A DNA stretch of 64,000 nucleotides from a virus, in the IMG/VR virus record IMGVR_UViG_3300042731_008397, positions 62,001 through 126,000 of that record, one strand, 5' to 3'. Below, in pieces: positions 17,481 to 62,925 of this stretch. A program made the translations under genes and the position numbers. Numbering within the stretch: position 1 is the first letter of the stretch; each line of letters begins with the position of its first letter. The notes under the pieces are model-generated. The model saw nothing but the letters and a program-made list of their open reading frames with translations. It was not told the origin of the DNA and ran no database searches.

Positions 17481-17555
17481 CTAAAGTCCAATAGGACGGG
17501 GGGGGATAGATGAAAATATCTCCCCTATAATTCTACAATTAAGAAGGTGGAGTAC

Positions 17556-21468: not shown

Positions 21469-22023
21469 ATGAAACGGATTGGATGTATCATTGCAATAAT
21501 CTTGATAAGCTTAGTTTGGGGGTCTACTCACATTACAATCCGTATTGAAACCAATCCTGCTATTGAAGCGGCATTCCCCCAAGTTCAGACAGGACAAATT
21601 GCAGATGAGGCAGTGACACTTGTCAAGCTTGCGGCGTCACTTCAATCTGAATGGAATCAATTCAGGAATCTTGTTGGCGATACGAATGAAATCACATGGA
21701 CAGTCTCAGCCGTTCAACAGATCACAGATCCCAACACAACACTCACCATAACACACGGGATTCAACAGTTTGAAGGGATCGGGGGCGTTATCCTGACATC
21801 GACTCCAACGATAGCTGACGGGATTGATGGACAGTTAGCGCGTATTCGATGCGTGTCTGACACGAATTTACTAATCTTTCAATCAGAGACGAATTATCCT
21901 GGCTCAGAATTAATTCTATCAAACGGGCAGGATTTCTACTGTGGTCACGGGGATTCGATGCTATTGGCGTTCAACGGGCTAATTTCACGGTGGGAAGAGA
22001 TTAGCCGAATTGATATACAATGA
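21469..22023 (+). CDS. Exported protein with fibre C-terminal domain (184 aa)
   Basis: Residues 1-20 are a signal peptide or membrane anchor (MKRIGCIIAIILISLVWGST). Residues ~30-70 resemble phage fibre trimerisation segments (QTGQIADEAVTLVKLAASLQ). Residues ~90-184 form a beta domain homologous to the C-terminus of the next gene: ITHGIQQFEGIGGV, then DTNLLIFQSETNYPGSELIL, then GHGDSMLLAF. The shared domain suggests gene duplication. Likely a virion fibre or secreted surface protein. The signal peptide is unusual for a virion part. Confidence 0.65.
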   Translation: MKRIGCIIAIILISLVWGSTHITIRIETNPAIEAAFPQVQTGQIADEAVTLVKLAASLQSEWNQFRNLVGDTNEITWTVSAVQQITDPNTTLTITHGIQQFEGIGGVILTSTPTIADGIDGQLARIRCVSDTNLLIFQSETNYPGSELILSNGQDFYCGHGDSMLLAFNGLISRWEEISRIDIQ

Positions 22024-22033
22024 GGTATTTATT

Positions 22034-23251
22034 ATGAAAAGATTACGATATGTCTTGATTGCATTACTTATTACGCATCTTTTGAGTGCAGTTCCTATCG
22101 AAGCGACTTCTTTGGGAGGAGCAGGGAATCAAAATGAGTGGGTGCTCCCCGATCTCAGAATCGGGGTATCTGGGACTGATTACACCTTCCCTTCCACAAG
22201 AGGGACGGAAAATCAAATTCTCAAACTTGATGCATCGGGGAATTTGACCTTTCAGGCTGATGCCGGTGGCGGTTCGGATGAGAAAGTCGGGGTTGATGCT
22301 CTCGCTACCCCAGATTATCTTGGGGCATCTGGAAGTACAGGGGTATTACGGATTGACTCTACAGGACTCACATATACTGATGGTGGAGATCATGTCACGT
22401 TAGGATGTGATGTCGCGGACACTGATACCGTAGGGTGTTTATCGGATACAGATTGGGATACATTTAACGGGAAACAAGATGCCCTGGTCGCTGGAACGGA
22501 TTACGCGATCCCTGGTGCGAATGACGATATTACATCAATGACCGGGTTGACAGGTGATATTGGCTCCCCATCATCAATTACCTTTGCTGATGGCGGAGCT
22601 ATCCGATCAAGTACTACGGATACAGACACGCTTTTAGGTCAAGTATGGGATGTGGACGGAGCATCCTACACAACATTTTTTACGGCGACTGTCGGGAACA
22701 CTCCGACGTTTGATCTGGCCTCTTTCACGACCATTGGAGGCAGTTCTATTGGAACCGTCACGTCAATTTCAGCCGGGAATGGGATGGATTTTACGACGAT
22801 CACGGGAAGCGGTCCTGTAACGATGGGAACACCGGGGAGTCTAACTCCCTCGACAACGAACGCGACGACTACAACAAGTCATACCCATGAAGTCACCGGG
22901 TTTTTAGTGACTGATGGGCTTCACACACAAACTCCCTCATCAGATACGGCGGTTGTTGCTGGAACGGCTCTTACTATAACCAAAGGGATTATGCGAATTG
23001 TCGGGTCTGGGGGCCCTGTCACAGTGACAGCAACTCCATCTATCGCAGACCTGGCAGATGGAACGTGTTTCGTGTTACAAGGCACGGATGACACGAACAC
23101 CGTGACGTTTCAAAGTGAAGGGTCATTATCGGGATCAGGATTAACATTCAGCAACGATCAAAATTTTACGTTTGGAAAAGGTGATATGATGCTCCTATGC
23201 CGAGACGATGGAGAAGATACACTATACGAGGTGTCACGGAGTGATAATTAA
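22034..23251 (+). CDS. Tail-fibre-like protein with signal peptide (405 aa)
   Basis: ATG 22034 follows GAGGT. Residues 1-26 form a Sec-type signal (MKRLRYVLIALLITHLLSAV). The body is typical of fibre/surface repeats: DTDTVGCLSDTDWDTFNGKQ, then GTDYAIPG, then DDITSMTGLTGDI. These FNGKQ/DITS units are common in phage fibres. A Ser/Thr/Gly-rich middle contains HTHEVTGF. The last ~95 residues repeat the C-terminal domain of the gene at 21469. Role inferred as adsorption or surface display. Coupled to its neighbours by short gaps. Confidence 0.7.
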   Translation: MKRLRYVLIALLITHLLSAVPIEATSLGGAGNQNEWVLPDLRIGVSGTDYTFPSTRGTENQILKLDASGNLTFQADAGGGSDEKVGVDALATPDYLGASGSTGVLRIDSTGLTYTDGGDHVTLGCDVADTDTVGCLSDTDWDTFNGKQDALVAGTDYAIPGANDDITSMTGLTGDIGSPSSITFADGGAIRSSTTDTDTLLGQVWDVDGASYTTFFTATVGNTPTFDLASFTTIGGSSIGTVTSISAGNGMDFTTITGSGPVTMGTPGSLTPSTTNATTTTSHTHEVTGFLVTDGLHTQTPSSDTAVVAGTALTITKGIMRIVGSGGPVTVTATPSIADLADGTCFVLQGTDDTNTVTFQSEGSLSGSGLTFSNDQNFTFGKGDMMLLCRDDGEDTLYEVSRSDN

Positions 23252-23252
23252 G

Positions 23253-23501
23253 ATGAAAGACCTAATATACATCACGATTATTTGTATCGTCTTATTTTTT
23301 TCATGGCTATCAAGGAATACTCCGTTAGAATATCTCGCATATATGTGTAATCGAAATCAATCACAGCCTCAGTATTTTTGTGGGGAGAACGACAATTCTA
23401 TAGAAATAACACTCCCACCGGAAGTCAGTATTGTCGATATTCTTGAAACCCCATATTGGAGTGAGAAGTCATTGGTTCTTGGTTATGATGTACGGGAATA
23501 A
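23253..23501 (+). CDS. Small membrane-anchored protein (82 aa)
   Basis: ATG at 23253, overlapping region of the previous stop (TAAG-ATG). An N-terminal hydrophobic helix (residues ~4-20, LIYITIICIVLFFSWL) is followed by a short extracytoplasmic part with two cysteines (YMCNRNQ, YFCGEND) that could form a disulfide. No family recognised. The start was chosen because the upstream in-frame methionine lies inside the previous gene. Confidence 0.6.
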   Translation: MKDLIYITIICIVLFFSWLSRNTPLEYLAYMCNRNQSQPQYFCGENDNSIEITLPPEVSIVDILETPYWSEKSLVLGYDVRE

Positions 23502-23502
23502 A

Positions 23503-24285
23503 ATGAATATTCGTTTTAGAGTCTTCACGGTTATTTTCTGTTGTGTATTTCTGATATATACAGCTAGGATCGTATCACAATCAGCCCAACTCGGAGGATC
23601 AGGGGCCTCAAATCCAGAATACTTTTCTGGAAAGGTCACCATCGCTGATAGTTCAACCACCCCACCGTTGAATCTGACAGAGCGTTCCACATCCCCTTCT
23701 AGCCCATCATCGGGGGACATTTACCTTGATGACGGAACAAACTGTACAGATGGCTCCAATCCCTGTTTACGGCGGTATACCGGGGCAGCCTGGGAAGATA
23801 TTAACAATACTGGAAGCGGAAGTCCTTACACGGGAGACTACAAATGGTCAGCCCAAACGGCTGATCATGGTAACTGGTTACTCTGTGATGGAGGGACGGT
23901 GTTACGATCTTCATCGCTAGGGACACTTCTGGTCAGTTTAGGATTACCGTTTGGGGTCGGGGATGGAAGTACGACCGTCAATATCCCCGACCCGGCTGGA
24001 CGGTCGTTGTTAGCAGCCGGGTCGGGAAGCGGGCTTACAACCCGATCTATCGGAGATTCAGGCGGAGAAGAAACTCATCAACTTACGATTTCAGAAATGC
24101 CTGCACACACCCATGATGCTCCTAACTCAAAAAATTTCATCACATCAACAGGGTCTTCTGGAGCAGCCGGAGGTGGATGGAATAGTGTAGAAACGTCCAC
24201 AGCTTCAACGGGTGGAGACGGAAGCCATAATACGATGCATCCGTTCCTGGCAGTGGGGAACTTATTTATTTATGCTGGTTCGTAA
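23503..24285 (+). CDS. Phage tail collar domain protein with N-terminal signal/anchor
   Basis: ATG 23503, 1 bp after the previous stop. Residues 1-22 are hydrophobic (FRVFTVIFCCVFLIYTA). Residues ~100-260 show the phage tail collar domain (PF07484-like): GNWLLCDGGTVLRSSSLG, then FGVGDGSTTVNIPDPAGR, GGEETHQLTISEMPAHTHD, and a final MHPFLAVGNLFIYAGS. This domain sits in fibre/collar proteins of many phages. The cysteine pair CTDGSNPC lies before it. The exported-protein N-terminus on a collar protein is odd and is shared with three neighbours. Confidence 0.85.
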   Translation: MNIRFRVFTVIFCCVFLIYTARIVSQSAQLGGSGASNPEYFSGKVTIADSSTTPPLNLTERSTSPSSPSSGDIYLDDGTNCTDGSNPCLRRYTGAAWEDINNTGSGSPYTGDYKWSAQTADHGNWLLCDGGTVLRSSSLGTLLVSLGLPFGVGDGSTTVNIPDPAGRSLLAAGSGSGLTTRSIGDSGGEETHQLTISEMPAHTHDAPNSKNFITSTGSSGAAGGGWNSVETSTASTGGDGSHNTMHPFLAVGNLFIYAGS

Positions 24286-25025: not shown

Positions 25026-25865
25026 ATGGCACTTGTTACCAACCAACTTTTCAATGAAGCTCCAAACGGTACAAGGACCACGTTCACGACAACACCAAAG
25101 GTGTTCGTTGTCGGGACACTTTGGGTCACACAAGGAGGGCTTGTCGTTTGGAATTTTTCATATACAAACAATTACAAGATTAAATTTGATACCGCACCTG
25201 ATCCGGCAAACGGGGATCTCCGTTGGTCTGGACAGCTTGCATTCGGCGATGAGAGTGAACCATCACAATTCCCTGCCTATACACTGACCAGTATGTGGAC
25301 AGTGGCGTCGTTCCTGCTCTGGTATCGGTATGAACCAGAACAATTTATGCCCTTTGTAACATTTGTCAATTGGGAAGATTTTGAAAATTTTATAGGTAAT
25401 CTCCTTCAACAGGCAGAAGGAAAACTCCAACGATATTTACGTCCATCAGACGACTTTTACGACCGTGGAACAGCAGACCCAGTCGCTTCTGGTGATGAAG
25501 ACATCGCATTATCTGTCAAGGAAGCAATCGCGTTACGAACATGCCAGATTATCCGTGATGTTTATGGTGTTGCTGGACAGCTTACTACTGTGCAAAACCT
25601 GAAAGAGCAGTCAATTACATTTGAAGGTGCGGGAGAAGTAGAACTAACGTATCGAAATCCTATCACAGAAGATATTGCCGCCCAAAACCTTATTAATCTC
25701 TCTGAAATACATATGTTCGATGCCTTGTTTGTCCCTCTTTTGAACCTATCTGGGAGCTTTGGGCGTGTGCTATCATTAGCCGATCTGCCTTCTCAGGTTG
25801 AAAGTACCTACTATTGGAATACTTCCTATCCAATTTTGGGAAATGTGGAAGAAACTGCATTATAA
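25026..25865 (+). CDS. Virion-associated protein, beta N-domain plus helical middle (279 aa)
   Basis: The N-terminus (~residues 1-85) has the pattern seen in phage tail proteins that begin NGTRTTFTT and continue through a short beta domain (KIKFDTAPDPANGDLRW). Residues ~115-180 are helical (ENFIGNLLQQAEGKLQRYLR), somewhat like gp6-type connector proteins. The C-terminus is mixed. No exact family was assigned. Its 3' end overlaps the convergent HD-GYP gene by 40 bp, so no terminator separates the two transcription units. Confidence 0.55.
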   Translation: MALVTNQLFNEAPNGTRTTFTTTPKVFVVGTLWVTQGGLVVWNFSYTNNYKIKFDTAPDPANGDLRWSGQLAFGDESEPSQFPAYTLTSMWTVASFLLWYRYEPEQFMPFVTFVNWEDFENFIGNLLQQAEGKLQRYLRPSDDFYDRGTADPVASGDEDIALSVKEAIALRTCQIIRDVYGVAGQLTTVQNLKEQSITFEGAGEVELTYRNPITEDIAAQNLINLSEIHMFDALFVPLLNLSGSFGRVLSLADLPSQVESTYYWNTSYPILGNVEETAL

Positions 25866-26827
25866 TTATTCTTTTTTATGGCAAGGAAGGTGTGTTTATT
25901 CTGTGAAAAAATATCAACCAGCGCGGGATCTAAATGTGTGCCTGCTTTATCTTGCATGATTTGAGCCGCTTTACGGGAAGAATACGCTTCTTTATAAGAA
26001 CGTTTTTTAGTTAAAGAATCATACGTATCCGCTGCCGCTACGATTCGGGCCTCAAGCGGAGTTTCTTCTTTGACTAATTCCGAAACATATCCAGTTCCAT
26101 CCCACCATTCATGATGAAAAAATGCAATGTTGACCGCAATTTGGGGAAATCCGTTTTGTTCTAAAATTTGTTTCCCATAAATAACATGTTTTTTGACTTC
26201 TTCCCGCTGTTCTGTTGAATATTCCCCGGGATAGTTTAAAATTTCCCGACTTAGCCCGACGTTGCCTATATCGTGAAGTGATGCATACCGGCGAATATTT
26301 CTTATAAATTGGACATCGCAACCATAAAACTCTGCGAAACAGGCGGAATAAGCACAGACCCGTTTTATGTGATGCCCTGTTACCGGGTCATTTAAGTTCG
26401 TAATATCCTCAAGGACATTGACCAGCGTAATTGTAAGCCGCTCTATCTCCTCTTGTTGGGCTATTTGGTCGGTAAGATCGTCATGAATTGCTACGATTTC
26501 CCCACCAGGAAGTCGGAATACATAATTTCTAACCCAAAGTCCTCCTATTCGGCTGTTTTCATAATGTGATAACGGGAGTTCCGCCATGCCGCCTTTTTCG
26601 TTGACTTGTTGGAAGAGATCAAAAAGCCCGATAGCTTTGACACCTGGGAAGACTTCAGTTACTCTTTTCCCGACAACTTCTTTTTCTTTAACGTGGTTGA
26701 TTTCTTCTCCTCGCTTATTTAAAGCGATAAAGACAAAATCTTTACCTCCATCTATTGCCCGATAGATGGCTATTCCACTATTAACGCGGTTAAATACAGA
26801 GCGCCAAAGCATGTCTTCACGGGTCAT
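25826..26827 (-). CDS. PAS-HD-GYP domain protein, probable cyclic-dinucleotide phosphodiesterase
   Basis: Residues ~1-120 look like a PAS sensor domain (NSGIAIYRAIDGGKDFVFIA, then GKRVTEVFPGV). Residues ~140-325 are an HD-GYP domain: HHIKRV (152-157), HD (185-186) in SLHDIGNVGL, His214, HHEWWDGTGYV (238-248), AAADTYD (264-270). Metal ligands are all present; the last GYP residue is Val instead of Pro. HD-GYP enzymes hydrolyse c-di-GMP, and some hydrolyse 3'3'-cGAMP. It starts 1 bp after the previous stop, at the end of the tape-measure operon, so it is expressed with tail genes. A phage-borne HD-GYP is rare. It may lower host c-di-GMP or counter cyclic-nucleotide defence; both are inference. 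Confidence 0.85.
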   Translation of the reverse strand: MTREDMLWRSVFNRVNSGIAIYRAIDGGKDFVFIALNKRGEEINHVKEKEVVGKRVTEVFPGVKAIGLFDLFQQVNEKGGMAELPLSHYENSRIGGLWVRNYVFRLPGGEIVAIHDDLTDQIAQQEEIERLTITLVNVLEDITNLNDPVTGHHIKRVCAYSACFAEFYGCDVQFIRNIRRYASLHDIGNVGLSREILNYPGEYSTEQREEVKKHVIYGKQILEQNGFPQIAVNIAFFHHEWWDGTGYVSELVKEETPLEARIVAAADTYDSLTKKRSYKEAYSSRKAAQIMQDKAGTHLDPALVDIFSQNKHTFLAIKKNNYNAVSSTFPKIG

Positions 26828-30822: not shown

Positions 30823-30993
30823 ATGAAACAAGAAGATAAATATACAACGCTCCGAATTTGGACATCAAGTGTCCAAAAGCTTCGTCTCATCTATGCGTTG
30901 ACAGGTGAAACGATGGTGAAAATTTTAGACCGATTGTTAACGGATGAATTGAAACGAATACAAGCATCTCATGATCATCACGAAAAACTATAA
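30823..30993 (+). CDS. Ribbon-helix-helix regulator inside TnpB element 2 (56 aa)
   Basis: The frame reads MKQEDKYTTLRIWTSSVQKL and continues RLIYALTGETMVKILDRLLT. This is a strand (TTLRIW) followed by two helices, the Arc/CopG-type ribbon-helix-helix fold, with the usual T-x-R-I-type strand. Its last 23 bp overlap the start of tnpB. The inverted repeat in its promoter is the probable binding site. It likely limits transcription of the element; coupling with tnpB suggests joint expression. Confidence 0.75.
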   Translation: MKQEDKYTTLRIWTSSVQKLRLIYALTGETMVKILDRLLTDELKRIQASHDHHEKL

Positions 30994-32119
30994 ATACAAG
31001 CTGTACCGGAATAAGAAAAACAAGCACTTACATCAACAGATTAACATTGCAGGGATTATCTATAACCATTGTATCGCCCTGCATAAAAGGTACTACCGGA
31101 TTTATGGGAAACATCTGAACTGCTATCACATCCAAAAGCATATCACAAAACTTAAGAAACATCCGCGTTATGCATTCTGGAACCTTGTCGGTTCACAAGT
31201 CATTCAGAATATTTGTCAACGCATCGACAAAGCGTATAAACTCTTTTTCCGTAACTTGAAACACAGCATCAAGACGGCTCCGCCAGGCTTCAAGAAGGTC
31301 AAAAAATATAAATCGTTCACCCTCAAACAAGCCGGGTGGAAACTGCTTGACGGCAATAAAATTCAACTCAATTCCCATGTTTATAAATACGCAAAAAGCC
31401 GTGACATCGAAGGAACTATCAAAACCGTTACCGTTAAGCGAGACACCTTAAATAATCTGTACTTGTGTTTTTCGGTCAAACAAGAAATCGAAATACCAGA
31501 CACCAGGGATAACAGCCGGGTCTGTGGATTTGATTTTGGACTAAAAACCTTTCTCGTTTTGTCTAATGGCAGTGACATCAAGAATCCTCTCTTCTTTAAA
31601 CAATCTCAAAAGGACATCAAACACGCTAATCGTGATCTATCCCGAAAACAAAAAGGTTCCAATCACTACAAACACGCCAAACGGACGCTTGCTAAAGTCC
31701 ATGAAACGGTCAAAAACCGTCGCAGGGACTATCAGTTCAAACTGGCACATCAATTGATCGATGACTACGATGTCCTGATATTTGAAACCCTCAATATCAA
31801 AGGAATGCAACGGCTGTGGGGGAAGAAAGTCAACGACTTAGGATTTGCCTCGTTTCTGCTAATTTTGAAACATGTGGCAGTTCCGAAAGGCAAGATTGTC
31901 TTCTTTCTTGACCAGTGGCAACCGACGACGAAACCCTGTTCCGCGTGTGGGTATCTGAATTACGGCTTAACACTGAACGACCGGTATTGGACATGTCCGC
32001 AATGCAGTACATTCCATAATCGAGATAAAAACGCTTCGATAAATATTGAGCGACAGGGCGTTGTCGCTCTTGGGTTAGGCGGTGTAAGACCTCCATTAGG
32101 TGAGGCAACCGCTGTCTGA
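30971..32119 (+). CDS. tnpB: TnpB RNA-guided nuclease, element 2
   Basis: 382 residues beginning MIITKNYKYKLYRNKKNKHL. The RuvC residues are intact: Asp in GFDFGLKTF, Glu in VLIFETLNIKG, Asp in HNRDKNASINI. The zinc-ribbon cysteines are in CSACGYLNYG and CPQCST. The C-terminal ~20 residues (GLGGVRPPLGEATAV) are encoded by the right end, where the guide-RNA scaffold should lie. It overlaps the RHH gene by 23 bp. Sequence is clearly diverged from the TnpBs of elements 1 and 3, so the three are separate arrivals. Confidence 0.9.
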   Translation: MIITKNYKYKLYRNKKNKHLHQQINIAGIIYNHCIALHKRYYRIYGKHLNCYHIQKHITKLKKHPRYAFWNLVGSQVIQNICQRIDKAYKLFFRNLKHSIKTAPPGFKKVKKYKSFTLKQAGWKLLDGNKIQLNSHVYKYAKSRDIEGTIKTVTVKRDTLNNLYLCFSVKQEIEIPDTRDNSRVCGFDFGLKTFLVLSNGSDIKNPLFFKQSQKDIKHANRDLSRKQKGSNHYKHAKRTLAKVHETVKNRRRDYQFKLAHQLIDDYDVLIFETLNIKGMQRLWGKKVNDLGFASFLLILKHVAVPKGKIVFFLDQWQPTTKPCSACGYLNYGLTLNDRYWTCPQCSTFHNRDKNASINIERQGVVALGLGGVRPPLGEATAV

Positions 32120-49285: not shown

Positions 49286-50302
49286 TCAAGAAGTGGTGAT
49301 CTGGAACATAAAAGGGATTACCAACAAAAGATATTTGATATTCCCATAACCAACAAGGATCCCTGCCAATATAAAATACGCATAAGGGTGCCATGAAATA
49401 CACCATAACGGGAAAAGATAGAACGGAATTGCCTTTAAAGAGGCGCATGATAAATGTACCCATCTCCATTTCAATGAATGGAAGAGCTTTAGCATGAGTT
49501 TTTTGAGCACATTTTTTCTTGGGAGTGTATTGCTTGGTCGTCGGTACATCGAATAAAGCCCACCTGAAAATTGATGTAGCAGAAAGCGGGCGTGAAGATG
49601 GCCCCAGTACCATTTTGACGCCCACCATCCATAGATCCCTCCACCTATAATCGGTAGCGTGATTGAAAAAGAAGGCCACAGCATCGGAATTAAGAATGGC
49701 ACTACAATAATCGTTGAATATTTCAGGAAACACGCCAAAAGTATTGTGACTCCTGCAAACCATCTATGATGCATTTGGATAAAACGTAGTGCAATAAGTA
49801 CCAGACCAAACGCATACAAGTCATTCATTGGCTGTAATGACATTATTTGCATAAGTGGGGTGGCTGCGATTAACAACATTTGTGTACGCCCATATAACAC
49901 GATACATAATTTTAAACATACGCCGGTCCAAAAAAGGGCATAAATTTGCTGTAAGAAATAAGAAGGAGTTTGCGCAACCAGCCACGTAAATAGCGGCGGT
50001 TGCAGCTTAACGTAGTTGCAAAATGGAAGTGTCTCAAGAAATTGATGAACGGATAATCCGTGGAGAAGATAAAGTTGATTCCAGGTTATTCGCACATCAA
50101 TGCAGAGCATAGAGCCTTTGAACCCCACAAGAAGATTTAATAAATAACACAAAAGAATTCGTTCTGATGTCCAAGTATACTCAATAGCCAAAAAACAGAT
50201 AAGCATATTTACACATATAATTATCCACTGTAGACAAGACAATGATAAACTATCTTTAAACACCAACCCAACCACTAATAGCCTCCGGGCACTTCGATCC
50301 AA
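49286..50302 (-). CDS. Multi-pass membrane protein, possibly glycosyltransferase-39-like
   Basis: 338 residues with roughly eight to ten hydrophobic helices (WIIICVNMLICFLAIEYT; LFTWLVAQ; LLIAATPLMQIMSLQPMNDL; FLKYSTIIVVPFLIPML). Features like KLQPPLFTWLV and PMNDLYAFGLVL are reminiscent of membrane-bound dolichol/undecaprenol-type glycosyltransferases, but no acidic catalytic motif is certain. The frame begins at ATG 50302 inside the end of the previous gene (28-bp overlap). Last gene of the tail operon. A serotype-conversion-like or virion-glycosylation role is possible. Confidence 0.5.
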   Translation of the reverse strand: MDRSARRLLVVGLVFKDSLSLSCLQWIIICVNMLICFLAIEYTWTSERILLCYLLNLLVGFKGSMLCIDVRITWNQLYLLHGLSVHQFLETLPFCNYVKLQPPLFTWLVAQTPSYFLQQIYALFWTGVCLKLCIVLYGRTQMLLIAATPLMQIMSLQPMNDLYAFGLVLIALRFIQMHHRWFAGVTILLACFLKYSTIIVVPFLIPMLWPSFSITLPIIGGGIYGWWASKWYWGHLHARFLLHQFSGGLYSMYRRPSNTLPRKNVLKKLMLKLFHSLKWRWVHLSCASLKAIPFYLFPLWCISWHPYAYFILAGILVGYGNIKYLLLVIPFMFQITTS

Positions 50303-51321
50303 TCACCAGCATCACACGTCAAATCAATACTCCCACAAACATCTCCAAGTGCCGTCCCTTCACCTTCATCAAAATTCCACTGTGCAGCACAGTGGGGATA
50401 TGACCCTTCTTTTGTAATCCCTTTCCACGAGCTAGCCGGGAAGACATCATTGTCTCCAAATGCCATAAACATGATCCGTCCGTCTACGGAACTGCCCAAA
50501 TTAACCGTGTCTGTTGTGCCGACCCCTGTATAATTATCGAAATCCGTTACAGCGGCAACTACGGCACCACAAGTGCCATTAACACAAAAAGTTACCTCAT
50601 CATTCGTTCCATCATAGGAAACATCAATTTGGATCGGGACGCCGGTTTCTTGTGCCCCTAGCGATTGAGATGTATAGGTGTAGGTCGTAGTCGCAGGTGT
50701 TCCCCCTAAATCTGTTCCGACCGTGACATACAGTTGATTTGAGGCATCAATCCCAACACGGAGACGTACCGCAGAATATTCGGAATTAATAAAATCCCAT
50801 AGTGTACAAGTTTGGAGCGTATCAATCACCATCGCTGCGGACCAATGCCAATTCGTCTTAAAAAAAACTGGTTTTAACGTTGATGCGGAAATGGTAGTTG
50901 TCGCCATTGTGCCTGTCCCGTTATCATCAAGCCCATACTCAAGACTCCCTCCACTGCCTGACCCAACCTCAGCCCAGTCTTCTCCGTAATTTTGATACAT
51001 TAATATCCCACTAGTGTTTTTAAACCGGACAGGAAGAGATGTCATAGAGTTGTAAAGAAATAGCACTTCTTCATCCAAAATTGATGGCGTAATGGTCATG
51101 ACCCCATTACTGGATGTTGCGTTTTGCTCCGTAATCTCTGTTAACGGTTCTCCTCCTGGAGCAATAATCACTGTCCGCCGTGGAGTCCCCGAATCTTGAA
51201 TAACTTGCGAGAGCGCCTGCTGTTTCCGGGCAAGTAATTCTTGTTGAGCGTGAATAAACAAAATTCCAACCCCTAAACCACATAAAAAAAGTAGGCTATA
51301 TACAAACTGTTTTCGTGTCAT
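50275..51321 (-). CDS. Exported LamG-like beta-sandwich protein (348 aa)
   Basis: Residues 1-25 are an N-terminal signal/anchor (QFVYSLLFLCGLGVGILFIH). A coiled stretch follows (QELLARKQQALSQVIQD). Residues ~130-310 look like a LamG/concanavalin-type sandwich (SAVRLRVGIDASNQLYVTVG, VPIQIDVSYDGTNDEVTFCV, TVNLGSSVDGRIMFMAFGDN). The C-terminus has three to four cysteines (CAAQWNFDEGEG, CGSIDLTCDAG). Probably a carbohydrate-binding tail or fibre component. The signal peptide again is odd for a virion protein. Confidence 0.65.
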   Translation of the reverse strand: MTRKQFVYSLLFLCGLGVGILFIHAQQELLARKQQALSQVIQDSGTPRRTVIIAPGGEPLTEITEQNATSSNGVMTITPSILDEEVLFLYNSMTSLPVRFKNTSGILMYQNYGEDWAEVGSGSGGSLEYGLDDNGTGTMATTTISASTLKPVFFKTNWHWSAAMVIDTLQTCTLWDFINSEYSAVRLRVGIDASNQLYVTVGTDLGGTPATTTYTYTSQSLGAQETGVPIQIDVSYDGTNDEVTFCVNGTCGAVVAAVTDFDNYTGVGTTDTVNLGSSVDGRIMFMAFGDNDVFPASSWKGITKEGSYPHCAAQWNFDEGEGTALGDVCGSIDLTCDAGDWIEVPGGY

Positions 51322-52363: not shown

Positions 52364-53674
52364 TTAATCTTTGCGATTATTCTCGTCTTCAAAACTTCCT
52401 ATTAAAAAATATCTGTCTAACCCCTTGAACGTAGCGAGATAAACCGGGATCTCTTCCTGTAGGTCGCCTTGTTTTGTAAGCATGAACTTTTGAGGAAATT
52501 CATTAGGAAGAGTTTCCAACAACTTTTGATAGCTGTCTTGCCGGAATACTTGTTTTAGCCGTAATTGTGTTTTATCTAAATTAAGAATCCGAGAGACGTT
52601 CGTATTTACCCATTGTAGAGTATAGTTAAAATCCAATGACATTAAACAGATTTTATAGTCATGTAGGTCAATCTTACCATAGGGGAATATTTGTGTCAAT
52701 CGTTCGCAAAAGGTTATTTTTTTATCTAATGCGATATTATAGGTAGTAAATAGCCTTACTGGGAAAACAGTTCCTGATTTTGTAGTATTTAACGTTATGA
52801 TTACAGAAGATTGAGAGTAATCAAAGAAAGAGGACTCTTTCAGAAAAAGGGGGGCATAAATAAATACAGGCTTTCCAATAACTTCCTCAACCTTGTAGCC
52901 GTGCATCTCGGCATCAAATTTATTGGTATAGATGATTTTTTTTGTAGAAATAGAGGAAATCGTAAGTCCGATATTTTTAACCGAATCTAATGCAAGTTGA
53001 AAAGATTCCAGTAAAAATTTTTCCTGAACAGCATTACTAATATCAGAAATCCCTGCCTTGAACGAAAATGCTGCCTCACCATGAAATTCTTTACTCATGA
53101 CAAGTTGACCCCATCCTGTTGACCCGTTTTTTCTTATAAATTTAATTGAGAACGTTTGTGGGCAGTCATGTGTTTCCTGGCTTTTTGCATACTGAGAAAT
53201 TTGGGATAAGATATTATTGGAATCATCATGGAATATAGTTGCTAGTGGCATTCCTTGAAGTTCTTGGCTTGAGTACTCCAACATTGTTTCACATAATTTG
53301 TCAATCCATTGAATGGTCAAGTTTTGTGAAAGCCTCATCCCCATGATATTGAAAGATTGATTGATAGTGTATCGTTCTTTATTTTTTCTTTGCAATCGGT
53401 ACCGTGAATTGAGAAGTTTTAGGTAACCCAGTGCAACAATAATAAGTGGAACCGAAAGCAAACTTTCCCACAAAGAGAACGGAGAAAAAACATACCAAAG
53501 ATTACCAGGAAACGGGTATAACCGGAGTATGAGTTTCCCGATAATATATATACCTAGATACACATAGAAAAACACTTGCATTTTTTTTAAATTCCCATCA
53601 GGCAACAAAAAATAGTGGGAAGAGATTGAAAAGAGGCATAATGCCATAAATACGTTTAAGAACAGAAAGATCAT
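52364..53674 (-). CDS. Membrane PAS-domain sensor without kinase domain (436 aa)
   Basis: Three N-terminal membrane helices (~1-20, ~33-52, ~68-88), then a basic linker and two to three PAS-like domains. PAS1 (~105-215) includes IDKLCETMLEYSSQELQGMP and a FIRKNGSTGWGQLVMSKEF strand. PAS2 (~225-330) has a KIIYTNKFDAEMHGYKVEEV and VIGKPVFIYAP pattern. A third, weaker unit is at ~345-430 (YTLQWVNTNVSRILNLDKTQ). There is no histidine kinase, GGDEF or other output domain. It overlaps the receiver gene by 1 bp (TGATG), so both are made together. It probably senses a small ligand or membrane state and signals through the receiver protein or a host partner. Confidence 0.8.
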   Translation of the reverse strand: MIFLFLNVFMALCLFSISSHYFLLPDGNLKKMQVFFYVYLGIYIIGKLILRLYPFPGNLWYVFSPFSLWESLLSVPLIIVALGYLKLLNSRYRLQRKNKERYTINQSFNIMGMRLSQNLTIQWIDKLCETMLEYSSQELQGMPLATIFHDDSNNILSQISQYAKSQETHDCPQTFSIKFIRKNGSTGWGQLVMSKEFHGEAAFSFKAGISDISNAVQEKFLLESFQLALDSVKNIGLTISSISTKKIIYTNKFDAEMHGYKVEEVIGKPVFIYAPLFLKESSFFDYSQSSVIITLNTTKSGTVFPVRLFTTYNIALDKKITFCERLTQIFPYGKIDLHDYKICLMSLDFNYTLQWVNTNVSRILNLDKTQLRLKQVFRQDSYQKLLETLPNEFPQKFMLTKQGDLQEEIPVYLATFKGLDRYFLIGSFEDENNRKD

Positions 53675-54252
53675 CAGGACTCTCCTAAAAATCGCTTCAG
53701 ATAACCAATTAACGCATTAAAATCAATCGGTTTCGTCAAATACGGGATGGAAAGGTTTTGTAAGAAATTAATGACAGCCTTGTCTATATAGGCACTAACC
53801 ACAAGAATACTTACATCATTTCCTTCCTCTTTTATTGCTTTGATTAAATCTATTCCTGTTAATTCGTTTAAACGAATATCTACAATTAAGACGTTAAACC
53901 GAATATGGTGTAACATGGAAAGTGCCTCCTCTGCCGATAATGCAAAGAAGAACATACTATTAGGCGCTTTATTCCGAAATGCTAGCCGATAGAGTTGACG
54001 GGTGTCTTCTTCATCATCCACAACTAAAATTTTATACTTGTAAAGTAAAAGTTCCTGTATGCCTGCTCGGAGAAGGGCTGTTGCTTCCCGCTGTTCGTTT
54101 ATCCGTTCTCGAAAATGTTTGGTTGCCGGGATATGATCTAAAACTGAAAACGCCGAGTTTTTGGTACTCTGCCACTCCTTAACTGTATACCCAATAATAA
54201 TGATTGTTCCAACAATTAGTGTGGCTAAAATTGCAATGCTTAAAATGTCCAT
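53674..54252 (-). CDS. Membrane-tethered receiver (REC) domain protein (192 aa)
   Basis: Residues ~3-25 form a membrane helix (ILSIAILATLIVGTIIIIGY). A linker helix precedes a complete CheY-like receiver at ~72-190: acidic pair DD at 79-80 (KILVVDDEEDTRQ), phospho-acceptor Asp125 in VLIVDIRL, Ser153 in LVVSAY, Lys174 in YLTKPID. No DNA-binding or enzymatic output domain follows. All residues needed for phosphorylation are present, so a kinase (host or from outside the window) could act on it. It starts at the last base of the holin-like stop (TAATG) and ends overlapping the PAS gene. Confidence 0.88.
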   Translation of the reverse strand: MDILSIAILATLIVGTIIIIGYTVKEWQSTKNSAFSVLDHIPATKHFRERINEQREATALLRAGIQELLLYKYKILVVDDEEDTRQLYRLAFRNKAPNSMFFFALSAEEALSMLHHIRFNVLIVDIRLNELTGIDLIKAIKEEGNDVSILVVSAYIDKAVINFLQNLSIPYLTKPIDFNALIGYLKRFLGES

Positions 54253-54539
54253 TATCGCTGTTGTCCTTTAATGATAGTGGATAACTCTGTAATTGCCTTC
54301 GTAACTTCTACTACGTTATCAAGTACATCCTTTGCAAACCGTTCTAACAATACATTCTTTTCGGTTTCTTTTTTGATGACCAATCGTAATAGATACCACG
54401 CCACGTTAAAAAGAATTACATTCAAGATAAGCGACAGCCCTAGAACTCCACCTTCACCTTTAATCCATTTATCCATTAAAGAAACTTCTGGGGGGGCTGT
54501 TTGCGCTAACAATAGAATATAGGTTTGTAAAAACATCAT
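54252..54539 (-). CDS. Holin-like small membrane protein (95 aa)
   Basis: ATG 54539 (or 54536) with AAGGAG. A short N-terminal hydrophobic segment (YILLLAQT) and one strong membrane helix at ~30-55 (GLSLILNVILFNVAWYLLRL) are followed by a helical, charged C-terminal half (KETEKNVLLERFAKDVLDNV). Size and topology fit a holin or a membrane scaffold. The C-terminal coiled coil could dock other membrane proteins. The downstream REC gene shares its stop codon. A lysis role is inferred from topology only. Confidence 0.6.
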   Translation of the reverse strand: MMFLQTYILLLAQTAPPEVSLMDKWIKGEGGVLGLSLILNVILFNVAWYLLRLVIKKETEKNVLLERFAKDVLDNVVEVTKAITELSTIIKGQQR

Positions 54540-54544
54540 GCTCC

Positions 54545-55825
54545 TTAAAATTTATACAATCTTAGATATAAAATCCCCGCAAAATTTTTTGATCCGTTCG
54601 CTGCTTGGTAAATGACGGTCTTAAACAGGTGATCAGCCGTAAATGTCAATTCTCCCGGTAAAAAGTCTCCTTGAGGCGTCAAGTCTTTAACGTATGAATC
54701 GGTGCTATTACTGATTGTCGGTTTATCGGCATCGTCCGTGATAAGGCCGGTTTCAGTTGGAGGATTGCCACCAATGACCTTTAAAAGATCAAGTTTGGTG
54801 TCACCTGCTGTTCCAGGAGTTTCTGCCGATAAGACGAAACTTTCAATTGTTCCTGGGTATCCTGGACAAAACGGGCTGCCGAAGAGTTGACCTTCTGCCG
54901 GTTTCAAATCTCCCCAAAATTCAGTCTTAAATGGTGTTGGTTCAATATTAAAAAGTATTAAATCGGAAAAAATGTTGTCTTGAGTAATTGCTAAAATTTC
55001 ACCAGGAGTTCCAGTCACGCCTGTATTTTGGACATCTATATAACCTAAAGAAATCCAACCAGGGATGGGCGACGGCGTAACTAAATTCGTCTGAAGATCT
55101 GCTTCCGCACTTTCTGAGACTGAAATAATCCAACTCCCATCATAATCGAGGGAAATCCTAAGTCGTTTCCAATAATCAGCGGTTGTAAAAGCCCCCACTT
55201 CGGCATTTCCACCCGCTCCAAAGTTAAGCTCCATACCTGGAAAATAGCCAATGCTCCCATCTCTCCCGATAAGGGCAAATCCAGATTTTGTTACCCAGAT
55301 TTTCTTGTCGTTTTCTACGGAGTCATCAAATCTCCCTAAAGAGTAGGAGAGTAAGGCAAGCATTTTTAGCCAAGGATACTCTTCTATTCTTTGAATTGCC
55401 GCAATTTCTCTATGATGAATCAGGCAATCGGCATTACTGTAAAGCCCTTTATATGAGATTAGAGCGGTTTTGCCTTTGTCGCCAACAGGGAAGATAAGTC
55501 TGGTTGACATCGGCTTTTGAGAAATCCCGATAAAGACCTCATCCGCGCCAGGCGGACGTGTAACCACGGGAGTTCTTGGATTTCCTTCTACCGTTGCCGT
55601 AAATCCCGATACGCTAAGGAACGTTGCCAGATCAACCCATAAATTGTAAGCCCCGGTTGTAACTTTTGGAATATAGTCAAGTTCAACCACATAATCCCCT
55701 GTTACCGGGATATATTGCGCCTCATCTATGACATCAACCTCAAGCTCTAAGTCCAGATAACTCTCTATTTTCGGGAAAGAGGTAATTCCTATATCGTTTC
55801 GTGTCGGATAAAAAAGCTTGTCCAT
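54545..55825 (-). CDS. Tail/baseplate beta-rich protein (426 aa)
   Basis: Not assigned to a family. Mostly beta: MDKLFYPTRNDIGITSFPKI, IPVTGDYVVELDYIPKVTTG, GRDGSIGYFPGMELNFGAGG, YWKRLRISLDYDGSWIISVS. The pattern (KIWVTKSGFALIG, LRISLDYDGSW) resembles lectin-like sandwich domains of fibres. Ends 5 bp before the holin-like start. Position in the tail operon suggests a distal tail or receptor-binding component. Confidence 0.65.
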   Translation of the reverse strand: MDKLFYPTRNDIGITSFPKIESYLDLELEVDVIDEAQYIPVTGDYVVELDYIPKVTTGAYNLWVDLATFLSVSGFTATVEGNPRTPVVTRPPGADEVFIGISQKPMSTRLIFPVGDKGKTALISYKGLYSNADCLIHHREIAAIQRIEEYPWLKMLALLSYSLGRFDDSVENDKKIWVTKSGFALIGRDGSIGYFPGMELNFGAGGNAEVGAFTTADYWKRLRISLDYDGSWIISVSESAEADLQTNLVTPSPIPGWISLGYIDVQNTGVTGTPGEILAITQDNIFSDLILFNIEPTPFKTEFWGDLKPAEGQLFGSPFCPGYPGTIESFVLSAETPGTAGDTKLDLLKVIGGNPPTETGLITDDADKPTISNSTDSYVKDLTPQGDFLPGELTFTADHLFKTVIYQAANGSKNFAGILYLRLYKF

Positions 55826-55840
55826 CTTTAAATCCTCCCG

Positions 55841-56305
55841 TTATGTAATCAATCCACGGACATAATGTGTCTCTAAAATTTCTGCTTGCATGTTTGCCCA
55901 TCCCGTGATAAAATACCGTATCCTGGGCAATGCTTCTTGACTTATTTCAAATGATTCCGCTCCGAATCCACCTTTCCCAAATCCTCTATAGCCATATATC
56001 GGGGGAAGCTTCAACATTGCATAAAATGGATATGTGTATATGCCCGTTGGAAGGGTAGTTTGCAGAGTAACTTTTAAAGTTCCTTGTTTCTCTGTTACGA
56101 AGTCCGCAACGGAAATCGGGAAAACAAACGTTTGACCATTTGTTTCAAATTTGACGGTCAATCCGGGGATGATAATAAAAAACCCGTCCATTTGGGGAAG
56201 CGCCGGGATAATCACATTGTTATATGTCAACGTCTGGTAGACCTCTGCTTCAAGCAGTCGTAGCGGGTAAACCACACCTTGAATTTCTCTATAAAATTGA
56301 ATCAT
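55841..56305 (-). CDS. Tail-operon protein (154 aa)
   Basis: Start overlaps the previous stop (ATGA at 56302-56305). It is beta-rich: IQGVVYPLRLLEAEVYQTLT, MDGFFIIIPGLTVKFETNGQ, KQGTLKVTLQTTLPTGIYTY. It is probably a small structural domain of the tail tip. No family recognised. Confidence 0.6.
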   Translation of the reverse strand: MIQFYREIQGVVYPLRLLEAEVYQTLTYNNVIIPALPQMDGFFIIIPGLTVKFETNGQTFVFPISVADFVTEKQGTLKVTLQTTLPTGIYTYPFYAMLKLPPIYGYRGFGKGGFGAESFEISQEALPRIRYFITGWANMQAEILETHYVRGLIT

Positions 56306-56529
56306 AATAAAAATTGTGCCCCGTTTCCGTCCGTTATTATAGTAGATTCCCCTTCAAAAAATTGTGTCCGGCTCCCTAAAGTCGGCATAAAGATAACCGA
56401 AAGTCCTGTTTCCATTTTTAGCGGTTTCTTAGGATACCCGCGTTGAATGATTCTCTCCGCCCGTTCTGCAAATCTTGTCAGAGTTCTTTTATTTTCCGCC
56501 CTCATCATAGCATAAGAAAAAGCCCCCAT
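56302..56529 (-). CDS. Small tail-operon protein (75 aa)
   Basis: It starts at ATG 56529, 2 bp after the large hub-like gene. Helical basic N-terminus (MRAENKRTLTRFAERAERII) and a beta C-terminus (ETGLSVIFMPTLGSRTQFF). Unknown; coupled to both neighbours. Confidence 0.55.
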   Translation of the reverse strand: MGAFSYAMMRAENKRTLTRFAERAERIIQRGYPKKPLKMETGLSVIFMPTLGSRTQFFEGESTIITDGNGAQFLL

Positions 56530-56531
56530 AG

Positions 56532-58499
56532 TTAACTTCCTCCAAAACCGTTTTCGTCACTGGCAATAAAACCTTTCGTATTTAGTCCTATGTCATATCC
56601 CCCGGAAGCAGACTCAATAACAGAGAATCCGACAACCTTACACCCATTAAATGTCTGTCCCGGTAGAATTGGATACGGGACATGCTCCCAGTTACGGGAA
56701 ACCCGTGACTCGATATTTTTATTTTGAACAAATGCCGTCCAGATTTCTAGGTCTTCCCAATTACAAGAAGAAATCCCGGCTGTCATCGGATAAATTAATT
56801 TTTTTTCTCCAAAATCTCCTTCTCTATAACGTAACCGCTGCCTTCGTAGTTCTTTCGGGGCTGAAGGGATTTGGTCAGATCCAATTGTTTCTTCATCAGT
56901 TTGTGTAGTTGTCGCGCCGGTTGCTGGATCAAAGGTTGTCGCAATTCGCCTGAACGTGTATGTCCCCATTGCGTCAGGCTCAATTGTTTTCGTATGAACC
57001 TCTAAATCCTGCATAGTGGTAAATATAGCAATTGATGTTGGAGATAATCCTTTAGACCCAATGTCAGCTATAATTGAAGCCATAACCCGATCAATCGGAG
57101 TAAGAATGTCGAATAGTGGAGATGTTTCCCCAGCATACGTGAAATACACCACTTTTCGGGAGACGGACACAGTGTTATTTTGCAAACTTCCTTCAAACCA
57201 ACGTTCATCGGCATCTTCCTCACTAGTGTACTCCCACAATTCATCTCGGATTTCATAGTTATCAGTCCATGCCTGATACGCCGAAATGAGAACGTCTGTA
57301 TAAGAGGCTTCTCCTCCGCTAATTCTCGCCAAAAGTGTTTCACGATCTAGCATCTCAAGGGTATTTAACAAAAAGAATTGTCTCCCATATCCAGTCCCTA
57401 AATATCCAGGATAGTAGTAATTTATATATCCTGAGATGGCTCTGGTTTTATGGGTTATCCGTGCTTTTGCGTATACCCAAGGATCGGTAAATTCTGTCTG
57501 AAAGGTGGTCTCTGTTTCCTGGAGCGTTATGTCGTTACTATAGTCCCCATAAGCGTCTCGCCAAATTTCCCCTGTCACGATCTCCTCTTCAGAAATGGTA
57601 TAAAAAGGATTTCCAAATTGATCAGGCATATAGGTTGTGGTAATCGTAAGCGTAGCGCTCTGTCCTCCAAAAGATGTTGTTTTCTCACGAGAATCCTCAC
57701 GCTCTACAGGCTCGGTAACTTCAATATCGTAGTATCTGGTTTTATCAGGTTTCCCCATTCCGCCCGTGATTTCATAAGCATCATAAGGCGGAATATCTAC
57801 TTCCGTGATTTCATAGCCCGCTATATTTGTCGGATAAGCAATTTGCGAAGGACTTCCAGCCGGGTCAATAAATGAAATGGTCAATTTGTCGTTTGTAGCA
57901 AGCCAAATCGTTTCGACAATCCCCGGAATAAGGGATTGTAAGAATTGCAAGAGAGAAGTTCTTGGCTCATATTGTTGGGAAATATTCCCGGTATAAAGTT
58001 GAGGAAGGTCACATTCAATTTTGATCTCCGCCAACTCTCCTATTTTCTCCATAATGTCTTTAATTGCCCACCCGGTTGTCGGGTAATTATCCGATTCCTT
58101 GTGATAAACGTCAACCAACTCTGTGTTAAGCTGGTCTTGAATTTTTAAAAATTTGGCATTAGAGCAGGAAATGAAATATATCGGACGCCCATAAGATTTT
58201 GTCAACTCCCGCATAATCTTAGGCACATACTGGGTAGTCCTTTCAATTCCGTTTGTTCCAACCCGAGTTTTGGGGGTTGAGCGATAACAGTCCCAATCTA
58301 TTCCGACAAAGGAAATAGTCATCTCTTCAGGCAGAAGATCCCAAGAATTTACATCAAATTCTCCGATCAAAGTCCCGCCTAAAACGGCTACCTCAGAGAT
58401 GTTAAATACAGGACAGATTTGTCCCGGACTCTGTTGAGCCGATATTTGGGTTAAACCCGATTGTAGACCTAACATTGAACCGATTGAAAAAAATTCCAT
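56532..58499 (-). CDS. Tail hub/baseplate-like protein (655 aa)
   Basis: Start chosen at ATG 58499, because GAGGG and the previous stop lie just upstream; the frame begins 15 bp earlier. The first ~250 residues contain beta modules and a small helical insert (IKDIMEKIGELAEIKIECDL, QFLQSLIPGIVETIWLATND) as in phage tail hub or gp27-like proteins. A large beta/Thr-rich middle follows. The C-terminus has PYPILPGQTFNGCKVVGFSV, an end common in tail-associated proteins. It is the largest gene of the operon. A hub/baseplate role is inferred from size, order and fold-like pattern. Confidence 0.6.
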   Translation of the reverse strand: MEFFSIGSMLGLQSGLTQISAQQSPGQICPVFNISEVAVLGGTLIGEFDVNSWDLLPEEMTISFVGIDWDCYRSTPKTRVGTNGIERTTQYVPKIMRELTKSYGRPIYFISCSNAKFLKIQDQLNTELVDVYHKESDNYPTTGWAIKDIMEKIGELAEIKIECDLPQLYTGNISQQYEPRTSLLQFLQSLIPGIVETIWLATNDKLTISFIDPAGSPSQIAYPTNIAGYEITEVDIPPYDAYEITGGMGKPDKTRYYDIEVTEPVEREDSREKTTSFGGQSATLTITTTYMPDQFGNPFYTISEEEIVTGEIWRDAYGDYSNDITLQETETTFQTEFTDPWVYAKARITHKTRAISGYINYYYPGYLGTGYGRQFFLLNTLEMLDRETLLARISGGEASYTDVLISAYQAWTDNYEIRDELWEYTSEEDADERWFEGSLQNNTVSVSRKVVYFTYAGETSPLFDILTPIDRVMASIIADIGSKGLSPTSIAIFTTMQDLEVHTKTIEPDAMGTYTFRRIATTFDPATGATTTQTDEETIGSDQIPSAPKELRRQRLRYREGDFGEKKLIYPMTAGISSCNWEDLEIWTAFVQNKNIESRVSRNWEHVPYPILPGQTFNGCKVVGFSVIESASGGYDIGLNTKGFIASDENGFGGS

Positions 58500-61177: not shown

Positions 61178-61206
61178 ATTATAAACGAGAAGGCCAGAGA
61201 TGTCAA
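61178..61206 (-). promoter_or_regulatory. Consensus promoter of the 323-aa virion gene
   Basis: Minus strand TTGACA (61201-61206), 17-nt spacer, TATAAT (61178-61183). It overlaps the region just after the stop of the gene at 61213-61566. Leader ~35 nt, with a strong Shine-Dalgarno. Confidence 0.88.
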
Positions 61207-61667: not shown

Positions 61668-62925
61668 GTGAATGCTCTACCGGCTGGAAGCCAGTAGCTT
61701 CTCAGGAGTCAGGCTAAAGCCTGTCCTACGCCCTGCATTCCCAGGGCGAGAATATTTACCGCCGCATTCTGATCGCGGTGTAACGAAAGATCACACGACG
61801 GACAATGAAATATTCGTTGAGACAATGTGAGTTTATGCCGTTCCCCGCAACGAGAACAGGTTTGCGAGGTATAGGCAGGGTTGACCTGAATTACTTGTTT
61901 TCCGGCCCATGCTGCCTTGAAAACAAGGATATTCAGAAAACTCCGCCATGCAGCATCACTAATACTTTTATTCAACCCCCGAAAGCCGTTTTTCTTCATC
62001 TCATTAATCGAGAGGTCTTCGACACAGATCGTATTATAGCTGTCGATGATCTTCCGGGAGGCTTGATACACAAAATTGTGTCGTTTGTTCGTAATGCGTT
62101 CATGGATTCGGGCGACGACTTTCCGGCGCTTTGTTCGCTCGGACGTTCCTTTTTTAGCGGCGATCAATTTCCGTTGGGCTTTTCCCAATGTTTTTTCTTC
62201 GGTTCTGAAAAAGCGTGGGTTTTCAATGACCTCGCCGGTATCATGTGTCGCAAAGTTTTCGAGACCCATATCAATCCCAGTTACGGGCTCTACCGGCTGT
62301 GGAACGGGTATTTCGTCAAGCTCACAGACAAACGACACAAACCATTTTCCAGTCGATGCTCGTCGGATTGTACAGGTTTTCACGGTACCCTCTATCGGGC
62401 GGTGAAGTTTCGCCTTAATTGCGCCGATTTTAGAAAAGAACACCTTGTTATCATGAATCTGAAAAGCTGCTGCCTGGGGATAGGTGAAGGAGTCATAGCG
62501 AAACTTTCCACGAAAGCGGGGATAACCTGGATCTTCTCCGGCCTTAACTCTGCGAAAGAACGCCCGGAATGCCAGATCGATCCGAACCGCGATATTTTGA
62601 AGGACTTGACTGTGTATGTCTTTCAGAAATTTATAATCATCTTTCAATACGCTAAGAGTTTTTTGTTGTCCGAAACGAGAGAGACTTTTCTGTTCGGTTT
62701 CCCAGGCGGTTTTTCGTTGCTCAAGAAAATGGTTATAGAGCCAGCAACACCCGTCAAGAGTTTGCTCAAGTATCCTTTTTTGAGCGTTCGTTGGGAAGAG
62801 CCTGTATTTAAACGTTTTACGCATACATTACACAATATTAGAGTATGTGTGTAATTGTCAAGAAGAAATTACAACAAACTGAAGATTTCGCCTGAAGGCG
62901 AAGGCTTTAAACCATGAGGAGGACT
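61668..62925 (-). mobile_element. IS200/IS605-group TnpB element 3 (no tnpA)
   Basis: On the minus strand the left end follows TTAC (62926-62929) and has the hairpin GCCTTCGCCTTCAGGC (62887-62902). The right end has the hairpin GCTACTGGCTTCCAGCCGGTAG (about 61676-61698) and TCAC at 61668-61671. It carries only tnpB. Its ends differ from those of elements 1 and 2. The right boundary is approximate. Confidence 0.7.
61709..62824 (-). CDS. tnpB: TnpB RNA-guided nuclease, element 3
   Basis: 371 residues, start MRKTFKYRLFPTNAQKRILE. The RuvC residues are intact: Asp in GIDMGLENF, Glu in TICVEDLSIN, Asp in LHRDQNAAVNIL. Zinc cysteines in CSRCGERH and CPSCD. Promoter TTGACA (62856-62861), 18-nt spacer, TATTGT (62832-62837), and ATG 7 nt later: another leaderless start. 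Not closely related to the TnpBs of elements 1 and 2. Confidence 0.9.
   Translation of the reverse strand: MRKTFKYRLFPTNAQKRILEQTLDGCCWLYNHFLEQRKTAWETEQKSLSRFGQQKTLSVLKDDYKFLKDIHSQVLQNIAVRIDLAFRAFFRRVKAGEDPGYPRFRGKFRYDSFTYPQAAAFQIHDNKVFFSKIGAIKAKLHRPIEGTVKTCTIRRASTGKWFVSFVCELDEIPVPQPVEPVTGIDMGLENFATHDTGEVIENPRFFRTEEKTLGKAQRKLIAAKKGTSERTKRRKVVARIHERITNKRHNFVYQASRKIIDSYNTICVEDLSINEMKKNGFRGLNKSISDAAWRSFLNILVFKAAWAGKQVIQVNPAYTSQTCSRCGERHKLTLSQRIFHCPSCDLSLHRDQNAAVNILALGMQGVGQALA

Follow-up and report, generated by a model that had tools for sequence, protein, structure and literature searches.

The timing of phage lysis is mainly understood as a holin clock that receives antiholin inputs, and the RI/T lysis inhibition of T4 belongs among the phage systems of lysis control. 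Several described systems come close to the locus discussed here. EpsW, a single-domain response regulator of Myxococcus, works by binding the membrane protein EpsZ (PMC12802240). In Yersinia entomophaga, a lysis cassette is governed by the PhoB-like protein RoeA, which acts on transcription from the bacterial chromosome (PMC10101115). In jumbo phages, HD-GYP proteins are interpreted as counter-nucleotide enzymes, and cREC is a divergent receiver that stands outside two-component signalling (PMC7824862). In the open-licence literature on receivers, kinases, HD-GYP, lysis timing, and spanins, we came across no report of a phage lysis cassette that includes a receiver or a kinase.

Here, we focus on a phage locus with three overlapping genes, which encode a small membrane protein, a receiver, and a membrane-spanning PAS protein, and on a cassette of similar order in a 545 kb phage (L065). 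Like EpsW, the receiver of our locus lacks an output domain and has the canonical phosphorylation residues; in contrast to EpsW, it is anchored by a transmembrane segment (TM), it is phage-encoded, its gene overlaps the small-membrane and PAS genes, and no cognate kinase was found. The arrangement recalls classical two-component systems in that a membrane PAS sensor lies beside a receiver, and L065 has the complete pair, whereas the phage of our locus is without HisKA/HATPase and DNA-binding output and carries the genes in a late-gene location. As in phage lysis cassettes (holin, endolysin, Rz/Rz1), a small membrane protein ends a late structural run, and L065 has spanins, but no endolysin or spanin is recognised in the record that holds our locus. 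RoeA offers a precedent for a response-regulator-like protein that governs a phage-type lysis cassette, although the receivers of our locus and of L065 have no DNA-binding domain. The jumbo-phage cREC and HD-GYP proteins are alike in that receiver-fold and HD-GYP genes occur in large phages, but the receiver described below fits the canonical receiver model far better than the cREC model.

Three overlapping membrane genes

The stretch of DNA analysed as a whole (the window, 64,000 nucleotides) comes from a virus record of 132,054 bases, which is linear, has no end repeats, and is possibly incomplete. The record encodes a tape measure (phrog_1533, 1.6e-55), a portal (phrog_3753, 2.5e-30), a major head protein (phrog_3922, 1.4e-16), a head protease, and a GpA-type terminase. 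Its head, portal, terminase, and tape-measure genes identify the record as a phage. Neither an endolysin nor a spanin was recognised beside the module or elsewhere in the record, and the window locus thus does not classify as a lysis cassette. A few lipoprotein candidates and other small TM ORFs are present in the record.

The module consists of three ORFs on the minus strand, and neighbouring ORFs overlap by 1 nt each. The small membrane protein and the receiver share the stop/start sequence TAATG (54250..54254, start at 54252), and the receiver and the PAS protein share TGATG (53672..53676, start at 53674). An AGGA-type sequence lies upstream of the start codon of each gene. The first gene of the module begins 5 nt past the end of a 426-aa ORF on the same strand (54545..55825), which belongs to the same run and is virion-like by context but without a family match. 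The run can be followed back to 59345; its genes overlap slightly or lie no more than 15 nt apart. Among the genes downstream of the module, one encodes a product with an N-terminal TM and another a polytopic membrane protein. Codon usage of the three genes is typical of the 132 kb record, and their G+C content is 35–37.5% versus a record mean of 43.6%. Small single-TM ORFs make up 13 of the roughly 204 ORFs of the record; since they are not rare, the presence of one as a neighbour is by itself unremarkable, and it is the one-base overlaps and the receiver that are remarkable.

The first gene (54252..54539, minus strand) encodes a 95-aa protein with a single TM near residues 32–50, oriented N-out/C-in as judged by charge. 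Its C-terminal part is predicted to form an amphipathic helix (about residues 63–94; helical moment 0.65 at 67–84), and the AF2 model has helices at residues 31–57 and 63–94 with a mean pLDDT of 65. The protein therefore has the size and topology of a holin (small, one to four TMs, charged tail), with one TM and a charged, amphipathic C-terminal helix. It matched no family in Pfam, PHROG, or NCBIfam, no phage sequence by tblastn, and no BFVD fold at E 0.001.

The second gene (53674..54252, minus strand) encodes a 192-aa receiver anchored by a TM. A TM at residues 3–21 is followed by a linker (22–72) and a REC domain (75–184), and the C-terminus ends with REC. The domain is a canonical PF00072 receiver (1.6e-17; 64.1 bits versus a cut-off of 30.2; residues 75–184). 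Membership in cREC (PF20274) was rejected, the score of 21.3 bits lying below the cut-off of 27 (4.5e-4 versus 1.6e-17 for PF00072). The acidic pair (D79, D80), the acceptor Asp (D125), the Ser/Thr (S153), and the Lys (K174) are all kept; the codon of the predicted phospho-acceptor D125 is at 53878..53880 on the minus strand. Pfam, PHROGs, and NCBIfam revealed no further domain, and the protein thus has the make-up of a single-domain response regulator. It is the only receiver in the whole 132 kb record.

The third gene (52364..53674, minus strand) encodes a 436-aa PAS protein with three TMs near residues 1–19, 32–50, and 62–80. Its first PAS domain, at about 118–198, is well supported (PF13426 3.7e-10, 40.5 bits versus 27; TIGR00229 2e-12, 47.4 bits versus 22.9). 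A second, at about 237–312, is weak (TIGR00229 1.8e-4, PF13426 0.0025), and a possible third PAS-like stretch was undetected by the domain searches. HisKA and HATPase_c were absent from the protein in the domain search, and it therefore does not count as a sensor histidine kinase; neither HATPase_c nor a kinase was found anywhere in the 132 kb record. A fold prediction of the PAS protein showed the TM helices and was otherwise uninformative (pLDDT 44). Charge-based topology prediction places the soluble parts of all three proteins in the cytoplasm.

A preliminary description of this DNA had proposed a holin-like protein, a membrane-tethered REC with all phosphorylation residues, and a membrane PAS sensor without kinase, joined by shared start and stop codons, devoid of output domains, and located in a tail operon. 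Most of this stands: the 1-nt overlaps are in the sequence, the receiver has its TM at 3–21, its PF00072 domain, and the five residues, the PAS protein has three TMs and a strong first PAS domain but no HisKA/HATPase, and no kinase or output domain was found at the three ORFs. The term holin-like holds for topology (small, single TM) but not for family, as no holin family was matched. Likewise, the late phage context agrees with a tail operon, but the genes immediately upstream match no Pfam or PHROG family.

A possible functional partner, not adjacent to the module, is a PAS-HD-GYP protein encoded at 25826..26827 on the minus strand (HD_5 2.1e-27, PAS_4 0.0033). Its gene belongs to the tape-measure run, where it comes straight after the tape-measure gene and a 159-aa ORF. 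In the alignment, residues of the metal-ligand type are kept (H153, H185, D186, H214, H238, H239, D267), and the signature motifs are variants, HDIGK being changed to HDIGN and GYP to GYV. The protein matches the structure PDB 4mcw (1e-34).

Recurrence of the gene order in a 545 kb phage

The preliminary description had called for a search for the three-gene set in other phages; no close relative was found to carry the trio, but a similar order is present in the 545 kb phage. When IMG/VR was scanned with patterns from the small protein, the receiver, the PAS protein, a 660-aa upstream protein, and TerL, no relatives turned up; pattern scans of this kind, in IMG/VR and GTDB alike, detect close relatives only. 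The PAS protein was unmatched in GTDB genomes, phages, and plasmids. Relatives of the major head protein (about 29%, 28 contigs) included none with a receiver or the 660-aa gene. The receiver gave general receiver matches only in phage records. Receiver-like genes are rare there, as they occur in five of 50,697 phage records at E 1e-5, and most or all of these are bacterial-looking; the matches in MW462191 and in Acinetobacter, Salmonella, and Listeria 'phage' entries were judged to be bacterial DNA. A generic receiver scan of IMG/VR returned three loci, two of them bacterial-looking, and it overlooked the L065 receiver, which indicates that the scan is insensitive.

A phage contig of 545,322 bases (L055, G037) with two receivers emerged from a scan for HD-GYP genes. 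One of them is part of the L065 cassette (G037:339000-349500). It is a stand-alone receiver of 136 aa (PF00072 2e-12), in which E7/N8 replace the DD pair and the acceptor Asp, Thr, and Lys are kept. The gene for a PAS kinase starts 2 nt later; its three-TM product has HATPase_c (8e-20), HisKA (6e-7), and PAS (3.5e-10) and thus the domains of a full histidine kinase. The receiver gene is preceded, in order, by genes for a 2–3-TM protein, an NlpC/P60-like protein, an i-spanin, an o-spanin, a 164-aa single-TM coiled-coil protein, and an endonuclease-like ORF. The i-spanin is Rz-like (phrog_739, 2.7e-5), as is the o-spanin lipoprotein (phrog_812, 1.2e-4), and such an adjacent spanin pair is one of the marks of a lysis cassette. 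The NlpC/P60-type motifs YVWGG, DCSG, and HVG were recognised by eye in a protein that is unmatched in Pfam, PHROG, and PDB. The major head gene (phrog_2522) lies about 6 kb upstream, and farther upstream, at about 26 kb, the same strand carries a terminase gene. Judged by its sequence, the 545 kb phage encodes both members of a two-component pair next to spanin genes in its late structural region.

In both the window and L065, a gene for a single-TM protein is thus followed by those for a receiver and a three-TM PAS protein, in this order, with the endonuclease inserted between the first two in L065. This recurrence is one of order and composition only, seen in two otherwise unlike phages and noticed post hoc. 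When the two phages were compared, neither their PAS proteins nor their small proteins showed significant similarity, and the two receivers are as similar as any receivers are. The N-terminal membrane domains of the PAS proteins were also considered as possible homologues, but this was rejected, as the score was no better than that of shuffles. As a rough estimate, a random site in 545 kb falls within 3 kb of the spanins with a chance of about 1%, a figure that doubles for two receivers.

A hybrid kinase and a stand-alone receiver in the giant phage LR756501 were also considered as a parallel and set aside, the context not being one of lysis; this receiver is not near lysis genes.

Proposed mechanism and alternatives

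Taken together, the arrangements in L065 and the window suggest, at the level of sequence, that some phages may use bacterial-style signalling for lysis control. For the window, we propose tentatively, as a reading whose chances fall somewhat below even, that the receiver and the PAS protein belong with the small membrane protein in a single unit expressed late, and that by acting on this protein they adjust a late event at the membrane, of which lysis timing is the likeliest. Lysis is the first candidate for this event because of the spanin neighbours in L065. The three genes would be expressed together, and the anchored receiver and the PAS protein would contact the small membrane protein from the cytoplasmic side of the membrane. 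D125 would be phosphorylated by a small phospho-donor or, speculatively, by a host kinase, since no phage kinase was found. Direct protein binding rather than DNA binding would relay the state of D125, a second cue, from the cytoplasm, would come through the PAS protein, and the outcome would be a tuned timing of lysis. In the giant-phage version, the PAS protein itself would be the kinase of the pair.

In favour of the lysis unit are the ORF overlaps in one late-gene run, the intact receiver without output domain, the predicted cytoplasmic location of the soluble parts of all three proteins, the EpsW precedent, the rarity of receiver-like genes in phage records, and the L065 cassette. Against it, the PAS and small proteins of the window and L065 showed no significant similarity, no endolysin, spanin, or holin-family match was recognised in the window phage, no relative with the module turned up, and the LR756501 receiver lies elsewhere. 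Control of a membrane event such as lysis by PAS and REC, as proposed in the preliminary description, is partly supported: the same order stands beside two Rz-like spanins in L065, but the PAS and small proteins are not demonstrably homologous, and the window record has no recognised endolysin.

The strongest competing explanation is that the phage interferes with the signalling of its host. The genes would then be a host-signalling moron, in which the receiver serves as a phosphate sink or decoy and the PAS and PAS-HD-GYP proteins rewire host two-component and cyclic-dinucleotide signalling during infection, while the small protein next to them has no connection with this and serves in lysis or in the virion. 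Such a role would suit the separate PAS-HD-GYP gene of the window phage, the recurrence of HD-GYP genes in jumbo phages (PMC7824862) and other IMG/VR contigs, and the distance of the LR756501 stand-alone receiver from lysis genes. However, a decoy needs no membrane anchor, the one-base overlaps link the small protein to the receiver, and the receiver/kinase pair of L065 adjoins spanins. We consider this explanation rather unlikely.

It is also conceivable, though improbable, that the small protein is antiholin-like or an adaptor and that, in the manner of lysis inhibition, the module holds lysis back until a PAS cue arrives, with the true holin and endolysin encoded elsewhere or in the missing part of the record. 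The neighbour of the L065 receiver is a single-TM coiled-coil protein, and a separate 2–3-TM protein is the better holin candidate there; the window record, linear and without end repeats, may be incomplete, and it has further small TM and lipoprotein ORFs. This possibility is a variant of the lysis unit rather than a true alternative to it.

A role in superinfection exclusion or envelope protection, exerted at the inner membrane after infection and without a part in lysis, is very unlikely: all three products are membrane proteins and membrane proteins also follow downstream (one with an N-terminal TM, one polytopic), but the position in the late run fits lysis better than early exclusion, and the L065 pair has spanin neighbours. 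Just as slight is the chance that the neighbourhood is accidental, with recently acquired host genes of low G+C overlapping a membrane gene of the phage by coincidence. Although the module's G+C is 35–37.5% versus 43.6%, small single-TM ORFs number 13 of about 204, and no relative with the module was found to show conservation, the low G+C is common to all three genes, so that the block acts as a unit, codon usage is phage-typical, and a similar order recurs in L065.

If the lysis unit proposed here is real, some phages would read cell physiology via phosphorylation to decide the time of exit, and a phage-encoded two-component output would have a membrane event, rather than transcription, as its target. 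In its general form the claim is more doubtful, namely that some large phages control lysis by two-component-type signalling, in which a receiver is paired with a membrane PAS sensor (with its own kinase or none) in a lysis or late membrane-gene cassette that times the opening by cell state.

Other receivers, HD-GYP genes, and further genes of the record

Other phage contigs carry receiver or HD-GYP genes in various settings. In a short phage contig, a portal-like gene is closely preceded by a gene for a stand-alone CheY-like receiver (L047 1048-1437), and a two-TM ORF, holin-like by eye only, lies about 4 kb from it. In a 155,895-base phage (G034), a degenerate receiver with a coiled coil follows tail-fibre-like genes (L067 5785-6417); this phage also encodes an HD-GYP gene. 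Membrane HD-GYP proteins of 345 aa are encoded in similar places in three prophage-like contigs (L048 7626-8663, L049 4930-5967, L051 7632-8669). HD-GYP genes were found in other IMG/VR contigs as well.

The window phage encodes several further proteins of interest. A caspase-like (Peptidase_C14) protein was recognised by sequence and Pfam match at L004 16416-17285 (G000 54416-55285). QueC-, FolE-, and QueD-like genes are present at L004 and L005 (G000 ~52900-58250); QueF-like and GTP cyclohydrolase genes have Pfam matches and the others were recognised by eye, which suggests that the phage may have a 7-deazaguanine pathway. Several TnpB-like genes and an IS607-like pair are present in one record (window 9523-10692, 30971-32119, and 61709-62824; L003 5640-7475; L004 5613-7251). 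Host assignment via TnpB was indecisive, the best matches being 50% to groundwater and CPR bacteria. Four fibre- or lectin-like proteins of the window (17547-19217, 22010-23251, 23431-24285, 50275-51321) have N-terminal signal-peptide-like segments, which is unusual for virion fibres. Perfect TTGACA/TATAAT promoter-like sites with 17–18 nt spacing occur at window positions 61206 (minus strand), 59313 (plus strand), and 12834 (minus strand), and these three are the only such sites of the record at a spacing of 16–18 nt.
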